A stretch of 64,000 nucleotides of DNA, taken from Luteibacter jiangsuensis. Lineage in GTDB: Bacteria; Pseudomonadota; Gammaproteobacteria; Xanthomonadales; Rhodanobacteraceae. The notes beneath the pieces are model-generated. The model ran no database searches and was not told the origin of the DNA. It saw only the letters and a program-made list of their open reading frames with translations. The DNA lies in NCBI RefSeq assembly GCF_011742555.1, contig NZ_JAAQQR010000002.1:372001-436000 (forward strand), given 5' to 3'. Both the position numbers and the translations under genes were made by a program. Shown here piece after piece: positions 43,951 to 56,359 of this stretch. Within the stretch, counting starts at the first letter, position 1. The number at the start of each line of letters is the position of its first letter.

Positions 43951-43966
43951 GCTTTGCAGAAGAAAA

Positions 43967-44328
<362 letters not shown>

Positions 44329-47240: not shown

Positions 47241-47612
47241 ATGGCCCCACCCACGAAGAAGACCACACCGCGCCGCGCCACAGGTAACCGATTCGAGGCG
47301 CAGGCGCGGGAGTTCCTCGAATCGCGCGGGCTATGGCTCGTGCGAGCCAATTTCCTCTGCCGCCACGGTGAGATCGACCTGGTGATGCGCGACGGGGAAA
47401 CCGTCGTCTTCGTCGAGGTCCGCTATCGCCGCGACGGAGCCTTCGGCGGACCGCTGGCCTCGGTGACCATGGCCAAGCGGCGCAAGCTGATCAGCGCGGC
47501 GCACCTGTGGATGGCGTGGCATCCGCACGACGCGCGGCGACCCAGCCGCTTCGACGTGCTGGCCTTCGAGGGCGACGACATGGAGTGGGTCCGCGGCGCC
47601 TTCGAGGCGTGA
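47241..47612 (+). CDS. yraN: YraN/UPF0102 nuclease-fold protein
   Basis: A 123-residue UPF0102 protein with a predicted PD-(D/E)xK-type fold. It has a basic leader, then GNRFEAQAREFLESRGLWLVRANFLCRHGEIDLVMRDGETVVFVEVRYR, with the family's Glu/Asp and E-V-R residues. Its cellular role is not established. Follows lpoA by 29 bp and converges on the HAD gene with 20 bp between the stops. Confidence 0.93.
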   Translation: MAPPTKKTTPRRATGNRFEAQAREFLESRGLWLVRANFLCRHGEIDLVMRDGETVVFVEVRYRRDGAFGGPLASVTMAKRRKLISAAHLWMAWHPHDARRPSRFDVLAFEGDDMEWVRGAFEA

Positions 47613-48340: not shown

Positions 48341-49591
48341 TCAGGCCACCTTCGCTTCGCTGGCGAATACCGCCAGGGCCGCCGCCAGCCGTGCGAGGCC
48401 CTCCGCGGTCTCCTCGTCGGAGATGGTCAGGGGCGGCACGATGCGCAGCACGTCGGGGCCCGCCTGCAGGATCAGCAAGCCGTGCGCTGCAGCGAGGTCG
48501 AGGATCTCTCCGGCACGCCCCTTGTACGGCGTGTCCAGCACCGCACCGATCATGAGGCCGCGGCCACGTACCTCGGAAAACAGGTGCAGTTCGTGGTTGA
48601 TCTTCGCGAGGCCCGCGCGAATGTCGTTGCCCTGCCGCTCCACGTTGAGCAGCACGGCCGGCGATGCGATCTTCTCCAGCGCCACGCGCGCCACGGCGGC
48701 GGCCATCGGATTGCCGCCGAAGGTCGTTCCGTGCGCGCCGAACTGCATCACGTCGGCCACTTTCGGTCCGACCAGCATGGCGCCGATCGGGAAACCGGCG
48801 CCCAGCGCCTTGGCGAGGGTGACGATGTCCGGCGTGACGTGGTCGTGCGTATGCGCGAACAGCGTCCCGGTGCGGCCCATGCCGCACTGGATCTCATCGA
48901 GCACCATCAGCGCGCCATGCGCGTCGCACAGTTCCCGCACCGTCTTGAGGAACCCCGGCTCGGCCGGCATCACGCCGCCCTCGCCCTGCACGGGCTCCAG
49001 CATGACGGCCGCCACGCCGCCCTGCCCGAATGCCTCTTCCAGCGCCGCGGGATCGTTGAAAGGCACGTAGCGGAAGCCACCGGGCAACGGTTCGTAGCCC
49101 TCCTGGTACTTCGGCTGCGCCGTGGCGGTGACAGCGGCCAGCGTGCGACCGTGGAAGGACCCGGTGAAGGTGACGATCACGCGCTGCTCGGGCGGCCTGC
49201 CTTGCGAGGCGGCCCACTTGCGCACGAGCTTGATGGCGGCCTCGTTGGCCTCCGTACCCGAATTGCACAGGAAAACGCGTTCCGCGAACGGCGCATGGCC
49301 CACGAGTTCGGCGGCAAGCCGCAACGGCGGCTCGGAGTAGAACACGTTGCTGGCGTGCCAGAGCTTGTGCGCCTGGGCTACCAGGGCATCGACCAGGTCC
49401 GGATCCTGGTGGCCCAGCGCGTTCACGGCGATGCCCGCGCCGAAGTCGAGGTAATCGCGGCCTTCCGTATCCCACACCCGGGCGCCCTTGCCGTGGTCGA
49501 GCACGACGTCGCGTGGCCGGTAGACGGAAAGCCAGTAACGCTTGCCCAGGGCGATGAGATCGGACGGTTCGGCAGGGTGCGACGACGACAT
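48341..49591 (-). CDS. argD: Class III aminotransferase, acetylornithine/succinylornithine type
   Basis: A 416-residue PLP enzyme. Features: VWDTEGRDYLDFGAGIAVNALGH, FLCNSGTEANEAAIKL, TFTGSFHGRTLAAV, LEPVQGEGGV, DEIQCGMGRTG, and the PLP Lys in VTLAKALGAGFPIGAM. This pattern fits ArgD/AstC (acetylornithine aminotransferase) of arginine synthesis; other omega-aminotransferases share it, so the symbol is tentative. GGAG precedes the ATG. It is transcribed away from the candidate small RNA. Confidence 0.82.
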   Translation of the reverse strand: MSSSHPAEPSDLIALGKRYWLSVYRPRDVVLDHGKGARVWDTEGRDYLDFGAGIAVNALGHQDPDLVDALVAQAHKLWHASNVFYSEPPLRLAAELVGHAPFAERVFLCNSGTEANEAAIKLVRKWAASQGRPPEQRVIVTFTGSFHGRTLAAVTATAQPKYQEGYEPLPGGFRYVPFNDPAALEEAFGQGGVAAVMLEPVQGEGGVMPAEPGFLKTVRELCDAHGALMVLDEIQCGMGRTGTLFAHTHDHVTPDIVTLAKALGAGFPIGAMLVGPKVADVMQFGAHGTTFGGNPMAAAVARVALEKIASPAVLLNVERQGNDIRAGLAKINHELHLFSEVRGRGLMIGAVLDTPYKGRAGEILDLAAAHGLLILQAGPDVLRIVPPLTISDEETAEGLARLAAALAVFASEAKVA

Positions 49592-49674: not shown

Positions 49675-49685
49675 TCTGTTACAGA
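49675..49685. promoter_or_regulatory. Candidate enhancer-binding-protein site
   Basis: TCTGT-T-ACAGA, a perfect inverted repeat around a central T, about 73 bp upstream of the -24 element. A looser inverted pair (TGTACC at about 49656 with GTTACA in this site) extends it. The distance is normal for sigma-54 activators. Which protein binds is unknown; the neighbouring EBP is the obvious candidate. Confidence 0.4.
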
Positions 49686-49757: not shown

Positions 49758-49773
49758 TGGCACGGCGCTTGCT
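49758..49773 (+). promoter_or_regulatory. Consensus sigma-54 (-24/-12) promoter
   Basis: TGGCACG-N4-TTGCT, with GG at 49759-49760 and GC at 49771-49772 separated by exactly 10 bp. This matches the sigma-54 consensus at every invariant base. Start of transcription is expected about 12 bp further, near 49784. Confidence 0.8.
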
Positions 49774-49783
49774 CCCCAAGGGA

Positions 49784-49887
49784 ACAAGGCCCTGTGAAGC
49801 CGCGTGGTTCGTTCGCCCGACGACCCTGCCAAGCCGGACGACGAATGGGAACTCCCGGTCCTCCCAGAGGACCGGGAGTTTTCTTTT
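49784..49887 (+). ncRNA. Candidate sigma-54-dependent small RNA, about 104 nt
   Basis: Defined by the sigma-54 promoter at 49758-49773 and the terminator at 49850-49887, with no plausible gene between. It is convergent with the sigma-54 activator gene that begins 26 bp further on. The next plus-strand gene is over 5 kb away, so the promoter has no other evident target. Five GGA triplets occur, some next to the hairpin, which could hint at CsrA/RsmA binding, but they are not in the classic AnGGA context. The layout recalls Qrr and CrcZ RNAs, which are also sigma-54-driven and adjacent to their activator genes; no sequence similarity to them is claimed. Confidence 0.65.
49850..49887 (+). terminator. 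Strong intrinsic terminator of the candidate small RNA
   Basis: A 13-bp perfect stem (49850-49862 and 49868-49880, loop CCCAG) followed on the plus strand by TTTTCTTTT. On the minus strand the hairpin lacks a U-run, so it serves plus-strand transcription first, even though the nearest annotated gene (the EBP) is on the other strand. Confidence 0.88.
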
Positions 49888-49912: not shown

Positions 49913-51250
49913 TTATCGAAGCTGATCGAGGGCCAGTTGATGCTTCTTGCAGAGACGGTAGACCGTGACGCGGGACACACGCAGGCGGCGGGCGCATTCG
50001 CTGATATTGAACGCGCTCGCGCGAAGGCAGTCCACGATGGCCTCGCGTTCCGCGGATGTGCGCGCGCTTCCCAGGCTGTCCCGGTCGCCGCTGGGGCTGT
50101 CCACGCAGAGTTCGAGGTCGTCGGGCGTGATGAGCGCATCGTCCGCGATCACTGCGGCGCGCTGCACCCGGTTCATCAGTTCGCGCACGTTGCCCGGCCA
50201 GGAAAAGGCATTGAGTGCCTTGCGCGCACTGGTACTGAAGGCGCGGGCCCGGGTGCCGTAGCTTTCACGGAATGCGTCGAGGAAATGCTGCGCCAGCAGT
50301 TCGATATCGCCCTTGCGCTCGCGCAAGGGCGGCATGCGCAGCCGCAACACGTTCAGGCGATAGAACAGATCTTCGCGGAAACGGCCCTGCGCCACGGCCT
50401 TTTCCAGGTCGACGTGGGTCGCGGCGAGCACGCGCACGTCCACCTTGATCGACTGGCAGCTCCCGATCCGTTCGATCGTTCCCTCCTGCAGCACACGCAG
50501 GAGATTCGTCTGCGCGTCCAACGGCAGGTCGCCGATCTCGTCGAGGAAGACGGTGCCGCCATCCGCCGATTCGAAATGGCCGATACGCCGTGCCGTCGCA
50601 CCGGTGAACGCACCGCGCTCGTGCCCGAAGAGTTCGGATTGCACGAGGTTCGCGGGCAACGCGCCGCAATTGATCGCCGCGAATGGCTTTCCATGTCTGG
50701 GCGACAGCTGGTGCAGCGCGCGCGCCGCCATCTCCTTCCCCGTGCCGGTTTCGCCGGTGATCAGAAGCGGCAGTTCCACAGGCGCGAACTTGCGGATGTT
50801 CTGCGACAGCGCGCGTATGGCAGGACTGTTCCCCGTCAGCAGGCTCGGCGCGTCGTCGTCATGGACCACGGGGGCATCGCCGGGCACGCGGGAGAGCGCC
50901 TGGCGCAGCGCGCCGAGCGACGACGGGCCTTCGATGATTTCGAATGCGTGGGGAAGAACGTTGCGTATGGACGGATCGGTCGCCTTCGTCTGCGCGCCGG
51001 TAAGACCGATCCAGGCCATGCCGGGGTGACTCTGCCGAAGATCGTCGAGGATGCGCACCGCAGCCTGCGGCTTCGTGCGCAGGTCCACCACCGCGATGGC
51101 GCCATCGCCACACTCGGGAAGCTCGGCACCGTTTCTCGCGGGATCGGCCACGAGCGTGCGCCATCCCGCACGGATCAGTCCGAAGTGTTCTTCAACGCTC
51201 GGTCTTCCAATCCAAACGACGCAACGACCCGTCGATTCCCCGCGCAACAT
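49913..51250 (-). CDS. Sigma-54-dependent enhancer-binding protein (VpsR/NtrC-like)
   Basis: A 445-residue activator. N-terminal receiver-like domain at about 1-120, with Asp56 in VVDLR but no acidic-pocket pair near the start, so it may not be phosphorylated in the usual way; this recalls VpsR. AAA+ domain: Walker A GETGTGKE (166-173), the sigma-54-contacting GAFTGA (213-218), and Walker B GGTVFLDEIGD (231-241). A C-terminal Fis-type helix-turn-helix lies at about 405-440 (FNISECARRLRVSRVTVYRLC). ATG 51250 has AGGAG at 5-bp spacing. With intact GAFTGA it should activate sigma-54 promoters, the nearest being that at 49758. Confidence 0.93.
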   Translation of the reverse strand: MLRGESTGRCVVWIGRPSVEEHFGLIRAGWRTLVADPARNGAELPECGDGAIAVVDLRTKPQAAVRILDDLRQSHPGMAWIGLTGAQTKATDPSIRNVLPHAFEIIEGPSSLGALRQALSRVPGDAPVVHDDDAPSLLTGNSPAIRALSQNIRKFAPVELPLLITGETGTGKEMAARALHQLSPRHGKPFAAINCGALPANLVQSELFGHERGAFTGATARRIGHFESADGGTVFLDEIGDLPLDAQTNLLRVLQEGTIERIGSCQSIKVDVRVLAATHVDLEKAVAQGRFREDLFYRLNVLRLRMPPLRERKGDIELLAQHFLDAFRESYGTRARAFSTSARKALNAFSWPGNVRELMNRVQRAAVIADDALITPDDLELCVDSPSGDRDSLGSARTSAEREAIVDCLRASAFNISECARRLRVSRVTVYRLCKKHQLALDQLR

Positions 51251-51458
51251 GCCCACTCCTCACCCAGTCTCGTGGCCTGCTGTCAGCTTCGCGGGTTCGA
51301 CTCCGGACCCGCCGCCGGCACCCCTGCAGGCCGGCAAGCCCCACTCGTCATTCCTGGCCAGCAGGAACGACGGCGCCGACGTTATACCCCGGCACAGCAC
51401 GCGGCCATACACCAAACGGGCTAGCCCCCTTCACGCCGTTCATTACTTGTCGCGGTAG

Positions 51459-55102: not shown

Positions 55103-56359
55103 ATGGCCGCCGGAAAAATTCTCTACGCCCAGTCGGGTGGCGTTTCCGCCGTGATCAACGCGACCGCCGCGGGCGTGATCGAGACCGCCCGCGACAAGGG
55201 CATCCCGGTCTATGCCGCCCGCAACGGCATCCTCGGCGCGCTGCGCGAGGAGCTGATCGACACGACCAAGGAGGCGAAGGCCAACATCGCCGCGCTGAAG
55301 CACACGCCCGGCGGGGCGTTTGGCTCCTGCCGCTACAAGCTGAAGTCCCTGGAAGAGAACCGTGCGGAGTACGAGCGGCTGATCGAGGTGTTCAAGGCCC
55401 ACGACATCCGCACCTTCCTCTACAACGGTGGGAACGACTCGGCCGACACGGCCAACAAGGTTTCCAAGATCGGCCAGGCCCTGGGTTACGAGGTGAACTG
55501 CATCGGCGTGCCCAAGACCATCGACAACGACCTCGTGGTCACGGACACCTGCCCAGGCTTCGGCTCGGTGGCGAAATACACCGCCATTGCCGTGCGCGAG
55601 GCCAGCCTCGACGTGGCGTCCATGATGGACACCTCAACCAAGGTCTTCATCATCGAGGTGATGGGCCGCCATGCCGGCTGGATTGCCGCGGCGGCGGGAC
55701 TGGCGGGTGCCGGCGCGGGCGATCCCCCTCACGTGATCCTGTTCCCCGAAAACGTGTTCGATCCCGAGGCGTTCCTCGCCAAGGTCAAGGCCACCGTGGA
55801 GAAGGTCGGTTACTGCACGGTCGTCGTGTCGGAAGGCGTGAAGGACAGCGAAGGCAGGTTCCTCGCCGAATCCGGTGCGCGCGACGCCTTCGGCCATGCG
55901 CAACTCGGCGGCGCCGCGCCGGTGCTTGCCGCGCTGGTGCGCGAGAAGCTCGGGTACAAGTATCACTGGGCGCTGCCCGACTACCTGCAGCGCTCGGCGC
56001 GCCACGTCGCCTCCAAGACCGACCTCGACCAGGCCTACGCGGTAGGCAAGAAGGCGGTCGAATACGCGGCCGAGGGTTTGAACGCGGTGATGCCGGTGAT
56101 CGTTCGCACCTCCGACGAACCGTACAAGTGGAAGATCGAGGCCGCCCCGCTCGACAAGATCGCCAACCACGAAAAGAAGATGCCAAAGAACTTCATCTCG
56201 AAGGACGGCTTCGGCATCACGGCGGCGGCACGCCGTTACCTCGCGCCGCTGATACAGGGCGAAGCCCCGCCGCCCTATGGCCCTGACGGCCTGCCGGTGT
56301 ACGTCTCGTTGAAAAACGCACCGGTGCCGAGGAAGTTGAAGAAGTTTGCGGTGGGGTGA
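55103..56359 (+). CDS. pfp: Pyrophosphate-dependent 6-phosphofructokinase
   Basis: A 418-residue phosphofructokinase. Motifs: ILYAQSGGVSAVINATAAGVI, FLYNGGNDSADTANKVSK (where ATP enzymes have GGDGS), and VPKTIDNDL, whose Lys is a mark of PPi use. MGRHAGWIAAAAGLA binds the sugar phosphate. So the donor is inferred to be PPi, making the step reversible. A membrane pyrophosphatase gene 5 kb downstream suggests a shared PPi economy. Confidence 0.92.
   Translation: MAAGKILYAQSGGVSAVINATAAGVIETARDKGIPVYAARNGILGALREELIDTTKEAKANIAALKHTPGGAFGSCRYKLKSLEENRAEYERLIEVFKAHDIRTFLYNGGNDSADTANKVSKIGQALGYEVNCIGVPKTIDNDLVVTDTCPGFGSVAKYTAIAVREASLDVASMMDTSTKVFIIEVMGRHAGWIAAAAGLAGAGAGDPPHVILFPENVFDPEAFLAKVKATVEKVGYCTVVVSEGVKDSEGRFLAESGARDAFGHAQLGGAAPVLAALVREKLGYKYHWALPDYLQRSARHVASKTDLDQAYAVGKKAVEYAAEGLNAVMPVIVRTSDEPYKWKIEAAPLDKIANHEKKMPKNFISKDGFGITAAARRYLAPLIQGEAPPPYGPDGLPVYVSLKNAPVPRKLKKFAVG

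Follow-up and report, generated by a model that had tools for sequence, protein, structure and literature searches.

A predicted sigma-54-driven small RNA of Luteibacter that looks like a surviving part of a Fap amyloid operon

The Qrr and CrcZ/CrcY small RNAs are transcribed from sigma-54 promoters, have an activator gene nearby and do not give a protein product. In these respects they resemble the small RNA predicted here in Luteibacter jiangsuensis, while their activators and their origin are different. The initial annotation of the locus had pointed out this resemblance, which holds for the layout and for nothing beyond it; neither Qrr nor CrcZ appeared among the Rfam matches, whether at gathering thresholds or when the region was scanned by E-value. 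According to the accessible part of its description, GlnZ is an sRNA released from the glnA 3'UTR, and the term RpoN-dependent sRNA occurs in that paper (PMC9731577). It is similar to the fap-junction RNA described below in being derived from an mRNA 3' end. However, GlnZ accompanies a living gene, whereas in Luteibacter the genes of the mRNA appear to be gone and the RNA directly follows the promoter.

The fap amyloid genes of Pseudomonas fluorescens PF07 offer a likeness of another kind. As far as the available text of these papers goes, an RpoN-type -24/-12 promoter precedes fapA, and both this promoter and BrfA have been established experimentally (PMC9207406); BrfA senses c-di-GMP (PMC13101488), and a positive effect of RpoN on fap expression in this species is documented (PMC8202526). 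In the same portions of the two PF07 papers (PMC9207406, PMC13101488) an RNA product is not mentioned. The PF07 brfA gene (1,326 bp) and the Luteibacter activator (447 aa) are of similar size and occupy corresponding positions; the two are likened by layout. Unlike in PF07, fapA-F are missing at the Luteibacter site, and the promoter, the RNA element of the fapC-fapD junction and the activator remain. Among relatives in the Xanthomonadales, fap genes are known in Rhodanobacter and Stenotrophomonas, according to the part of the source available (PMC3792158). A hairpin or an RNA product between fapC and fapD was not mentioned in the accessible text of the literature searched, which covered few subscription papers.

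The stretch analysed (the window) comprises 64,000 nucleotides of contig NZ_JAAQQR010000002.1. Its argD gene (acetylornithine transaminase, 48341..49591, minus strand), a conserved flank, is separated by 321 nt from the gene of a BrfA-like sigma-54 activator (49913..51256, minus strand; AAA+ and Fis-type HTH, PF00158, PF25601, PF02954), which lies downstream of the promoter and is convergent with the RNA. The -24/-12 promoter of the form TGGCACG-N4-TTGCT is complete at 49758..49773 on the plus strand (TGGCACGGCGCTTGCT; GG at 49759-60, GC at 49771-72), as had been proposed, and the GAFTGA loop that the initial annotation ascribed to the convergent neighbour was confirmed in the window protein. 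The claim that the plus strand is free of genes for more than 5 kb stood downstream, where the next credible gene begins at 55103, and failed upstream, where a plus-strand ORF ends at 47612. The pattern TGGCAYN5TTGCW occurred once in the window against 0.09 expected from shuffling. Since it occurred at 13 sites genome-wide and the reversed control pattern at 6, the motif alone is weak evidence and conservation has to decide.

The predicted small RNA of about 104 nt (49784..49887, plus strand) is suggested by conservation, by its fold and by a similar RNA at the fapC-fapD junction of relatives; its start was placed 12 nt past the -12 C. This segment has a folding energy of -46.4 kcal/mol (z -3.1; 1 of 200 shuffles was equally good) and forms three elements: a weak hairpin at the 5' side, a central hairpin (49807..49846, plus strand), in which some stem changes preserve pairing, and an intrinsic terminator with its U-tract (49847..49887, plus strand), the counterpart of the hairpin after fapC in relatives. 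The apical loop of the central hairpin is formed by 49822-49832 (GACCCUGCCAA), with a candidate seed at 49823-49831 (ACCCUGCCA). The terminator hairpin that had been reported earlier was found at 49851-49879, beginning about 79 nt past the -12 C; it has 13 bp and a CCA loop, and directly 3' of it stands TTTCTTTT, reaching 49887. A simple terminator scan of the region was uninformative, with 2 sites against 2.0 expected.

By BLAST, the RNA element could be detected in 18 of 19 Luteibacter genomes, and all 18 have it between argD and the gene of the activator. The alignment of these loci showed an invariant promoter core (TGGCAY-N5-TTGCT in 18/18), an invariant loop core (CCCTGCC, 18/18) and a conserved terminator hairpin, always beside the activator; the U-tract was weak in two of them (L019 and L020). 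Mean pairwise identity was 0.88 in the promoter, 0.87 in the central hairpin and 0.90 in the terminator, compared with 0.46 in the upstream flank, 0.50 in the 5' portion of the RNA, 0.27 past the terminator and 0.53 at the fourfold sites of the activator gene, the median dN/dS of which was 0.10. Substitutions in both partners were found for three base pairs, where column shuffles gave 0.3; a structure shifted by one column also yields 3 pairs, thus covariation gives slight support only. In G123, the single genome without a BLAST match to the RNA, the activator orthologue was not found either: its best match (1.2e-79) was at paralogue level, while the other 18 gave 6e-178 or better. On these comparisons the sigma-54-driven RNA is very probably real and under selection.

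The RNA lies outside the known Rfam families, in line with what had been supposed: in a covariance search no Rfam family reached its threshold. The leads obtained (miRNA, sX11, ErsA, ar14, anti-hemB, tfoR) were all far under their gathering scores and were rejected, and the alignments of mir-5429, sX11, ErsA and mir-3431 covered mostly the terminator hairpin. sX11 (RF02230) scored 25.6 bits against a gathering score of 70, in an alignment that deletes most of the model, and ErsA/Pseudomon-1 (RF01719) scored 18.3 against 50; what these two share with the window RNA is the likeness of a terminator hairpin. In the 197 genomes of the family RF02230 gave 14 weak matches, none above the cut-off; 11 of the 14 genomes carry an activator orthologue, and in all 11 the match is on another contig or at least 0.7 Mb away. 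Elsewhere in the window, the bacterial RNase P class A RNA was recognised at 43963-44328 (minus strand, 316 bits).

Orthologues of the activator (E <= 2.4e-120; next match 8e-84) were present in 106 of the 197 Rhodanobacteraceae genomes, 18 of them Luteibacter, and the downstream side was inspected at 89 non-Luteibacter loci. At 47 of these argD was found within 1.14 kb of the activator, and at 26 others a Fap operon, which serves to make functional amyloid fibres of biofilms, fills the gap between the two genes. The order there is sigma-54 promoter, fapA-fapB-fapC, an RNA element of about 105 nt, fapD-fapE-fapF and, after fapF, the convergent activator. FapB, FapC, FapD, FapE and FapF were recognised by NCBIfam models (FapF 365 bits, FapD 256) with scores nearly all under the curated equivalog cut-offs, yet far over chance; the match for FapA was weak (41 bits). 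The promoter TGGCAY-N5-TTGC was seen 563-708 nt upstream of the fapB match at all 18 loci with a long enough stretch. These 26 genomes were taken from 39 FapD-bearing genomes of the family, the other 13 belonging to two distant genera (g24, g25), and L219, a second record of the L324 locus, was excluded from the count. At the window site the fap structural genes are absent, and FapD was found at E <= 1e-40 in 0 of 19 Luteibacter genomes. A 12-kb stretch of another genome (G107:C28:7594-19835; L157, L164) holds two FapD genes and two activator orthologues, which suggests that the fap cluster was duplicated in tandem.

A covariance model, R1, was built from the RNA of fap-less relatives; its 36 distinct rows contain no Luteibacter sequence, and none of the 26 fap-bearing genomes was used in its training. 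R1 detected the RNA between fapC and fapD at 70 bits or more in 24 of these 26, and at the noise level of 20-22 bits at this position in G012 and G048. The window RNA was matched over its full length with 30 bits (E 1.6e-5 in 111 kb), whereas the reverse strand of the window gave 17 bits and the next best place 19. Among the 15 other Luteibacter loci searched, 13 reached at least 22 bits, and L020 and L018 gave 19.3 and 13.7. The reciprocal Luteibacter model, R2, scored 29-35 bits in 6 of 20 distinct relatives, the remainder being under the reverse-strand score, and gave 26.8 bits on the window's own reverse strand. The match between the two RNA groups thus rests partly on the GC-rich terminator, and the probable homology is carried by position, promoter, upstream motif and the shared ACCCUG loop as much as by the score. 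A variant of the RNA with CAACCCTGCCAG was found at one Pinirhizobacter locus (L141/L218).

Outside the family, R1 matches were observed immediately 3' of fapC in L196 (38.5 bits) and L197 (29.0 bits); in Xanthomonas chitinilytica (L220) a match of 28.5 bits has fapC on one side and fapD on the other. At L220 a strict sigma-54 promoter was not found in the stretch examined. An order-wide search with R1 under stricter filters gave matches in 47 of 348 genomes, 44 within the family; since G152 was the only Luteibacter among them, that search was blind to the window's version of the RNA. The matches in G397 and G279 lie just past fapC; the one in G282 was treated as chance, its ORFs being unrelated-looking (one catalase-peroxidase-like by eye). 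Class-wide, R1 matched in 3 of 369 genomes (G599, G615, G681), the FapD of G599 being on another contig, and FapD was found at E <= 1e-50 in 15 of the 369. At 12 of 14 measurable class-wide loci the fapC-fapD gap folds better than mononucleotide shuffles (z <= -2); the stretch folded takes in a bit of fapD, and asparagine content served to identify fapC. Inspection by eye showed a strong hairpin in 13 of the 14 and a clear U-tract in few. These hairpins (L368-L382) suggest that transcription partly stops after fapC.

A candidate activator-binding site, TGTTACA, is located at 49677..49683 (plus strand), about 81-82 bp upstream of the promoter. Of the 18 Luteibacter loci, 14 have the motif TGTWACA at -81 to -84 (0.15 sites expected) and 4 lack it; at this distance it was also found at 10 of 16 fap-operon promoters (0.28 expected) and in 7 of 39 fap-less loci of other genera (0.62 expected), where the expectations refer to whole 250-bp stretches per set and the motif was picked after viewing these sequences. 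Anywhere in the 250 bp it occurs in 20 of the 39 and is missing in 19. Among 12 of the 13 sigma-54 sites of the window's own genome, it stands at -81 only before the small RNA promoter; the site L040 has it at -23. Since it is common to the Luteibacter promoter and the fap promoters of the relatives, the motif links the neighbouring activator to the promoter.

The fap-less loci outside Luteibacter were counted as 48, namely the 47 adjoining argD and L098; L144 and L148, which lack FapD and show no argD in the sequence retrieved, belong neither to these nor to the fap-bearing set. Promoter and RNA were both present in 39 of the 48, both missing in 9, and one alone in none. In the 39 the RNA was found by sequence motif in 38 and as a weak variant in one (L141, 29.4 bits by R2); 36 of the 38 were training rows of R1, so their R1 scores are no independent support. 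All 39 have TGGCAY-N5-TTGC upstream. In L126, L132, L136, L139, L140, L145, L146, L147 and L152 neither promoter nor RNA was found; the persistence of the activator there indicates that it has other uses or is decaying, and in 3 of these 9 loci (L302-L304) its GAFTGA is changed to GAFTDA. Several of the 39 have a leader of 100-480 nt between promoter and RNA, some with fapA-like remains, so that there a longer transcript would carry the RNA at its 3' end; the shortest form is that of Luteibacter. In one genus (for example L078-L080) the sigma-54 promoter and the RNA are more than 200 nt apart, and a long inverted repeat (GCCAGCTGCGA ... TCGCAGCTGGC) occupies part of this interval.

In a tree of 84 activator proteins, fap presence needs at least 9 changes on well-supported branches and the fap-less, RNA-bearing state at least 10, this being a gene tree that cannot separate gain from loss. 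The locus L127/L214, where RNA and promoter are intact amid pieces that match fapC, fapD and fapF, represents a decaying fap operon. If the operon was lost around a retained RNA, deletions on both sides of it were needed each time. The origin of the RNA in a fap operon is well supported by these comparisons; RNA, promoter and activator have the appearance of what such an amyloid operon has left behind, an origin that the initial annotation had missed.

The search for a target turned to a distant FapF-like gene, found elsewhere in 22 of 23 Luteibacter genomes with 127-153 bits (cut-off 700). The exception is G123, which also has no RNA match; this joint absence counts as one event at most, and the RNA search covered 19 of the 23 genomes. 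The choice of target is post hoc, the operon having been examined because G123 lacks it. In the window's genome the gene belongs to a second Fap/Fil-like locus (G000:C15:160361-162999; L207, L385) with small exported proteins and an adjoining C39 peptidase that resembles both FapD and FilB; its start is near 161740 on the minus strand of G000:C15. In 7 of 8 Luteibacter genomes examined it starts with ATG TAT CGC AAT GGC AGG GTG or a close variant, and the RNA loop is complementary to codons 4-7 (UGGCAGGGU) over 9 nt (8 in one) with a pairing energy of -17.8 to -19.1 kcal/mol. The pairing is weaker in G062 (L387, L. rhizovicinus), at -12.6 kcal/mol, where no more than GGCAGG is left. The AGG codon is kept in 8/8; it makes up 7 of the 234 arginine codons in six window genes.

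Outside the site, two seed-complement 8-mers occurred 27 times in 369 kb of single strands (0.07 per kb), and in the up to four 90-nt start windows tested per genome 0.03 would be expected by chance; over an estimated 4000 genes, one to three dozen starts would match the seed by chance. A genome-wide search with the loop complement TTGGCAGGGTCG, allowing one mismatch, gave 38 sites including its own against 23 for the reversed control, and no convincing gene start was seen at the 29 other loci inspected; this search missed the FapF-like site, which differs at the ends. At 16 fap-bearing loci no pairing of the RNA loops with the starts of fapB to fapF (fapF in 2) was detected (mean z -0.5 to +0.6). 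That the activator might control the FapF-like operon directly was considered and rejected: TGTWACA is missing upstream in 8 genomes, and one poor sigma-54 match was seen in 2. The FapF-like gene is taken as a lead.

The reading we favour, and hold to be probable, is that the small RNA originated at the fapC-fapD junction, is driven by BrfA and sigma-54 and has been retained for a regulatory role since the amyloid was lost. Sigma-54 polymerase and the adjacent BrfA-like activator would transcribe it, presumably at high c-di-GMP. Its ancestor would be the RNA element, with its terminator, of the fapC-fapD junction. The fap operon would formerly have stood between the promoter and the activator gene, and deletions to the left and right of the RNA would have removed it before the radiation of Luteibacter. 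The promoter, its upstream site, the RNA and the activator gene would be kept together because the RNA regulates other genes, with which it base-pairs through its exposed loop GACCCUGCCAA, and the function of a trans-acting RNA is likely. The best candidate target would be the start of the FapF-like gene, where pairing with UGGCAGGGU would block translation. The narrower proposal, in which a c-di-GMP-sensing activator and the RNA stayed behind as a one-RNA regulon when the amyloid was lost and the RNA silences this distant Fap-like secretion pore by perfect pairing of ACCCUGCCA with UGGCAGGGU at codons 4-7, is speculative and has the chances against it.

The same origin could also have left an inert relic, in which the promoter and the terminator of fapC merely persist from the lost operon and, even if still transcribed, have no function of their own. 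The well supported operon origin and the 9 related loci which retain the activator without promoter and RNA agree with this. However, in Luteibacter silent sites stand at 53% identity and the promoter and RNA core at 87-90%, each loss would need two-sided deletions which repeatedly spare the same ~105 nt, and promoter and RNA are retained or missing together (39 and 9 loci, none discordant); we regard a relic as improbable. A strong hairpin between genes would also be expected if the element served as a terminator or insulator only, halting convergent transcription between argD and the activator gene. Such a role has no need for an invariant sigma-54 core, an upstream motif at fixed distance or an invariant loop core, and the U-tract is solely on the plus strand, where no protein gene ends, thus this explanation is very unlikely.

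A small peptide gene under the sigma-54 promoter is the least credible alternative and can hardly be maintained. It finds some support in the fapA-like frame, or its remains, just past the promoter in some relatives, and in one plus-strand frame of the RNA core which, read by eye, translates to PDDPAKPDDEWELPV. This frame is disrupted by indels of 1-2 nt in several Luteibacter, and no start codon with a ribosome site was seen before it in the window. The region 49784-49887 is for this reason most likely non-coding, which agrees with the initial view that it holds no credible ORF.

If the favoured reading, a regulator kept from the fapC-fapD junction, is true, the RNA has outlived its parent operon, and the many separate losses are natural replicates. 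The loss of protein genes on both sides with the RNA kept would be comparative evidence that an RNA in the middle of an operon can carry its own function. The fapC-fapD hairpin seen in most of the few fap operons sampled class-wide may help to explain the unequal expression of the fibre and export genes.
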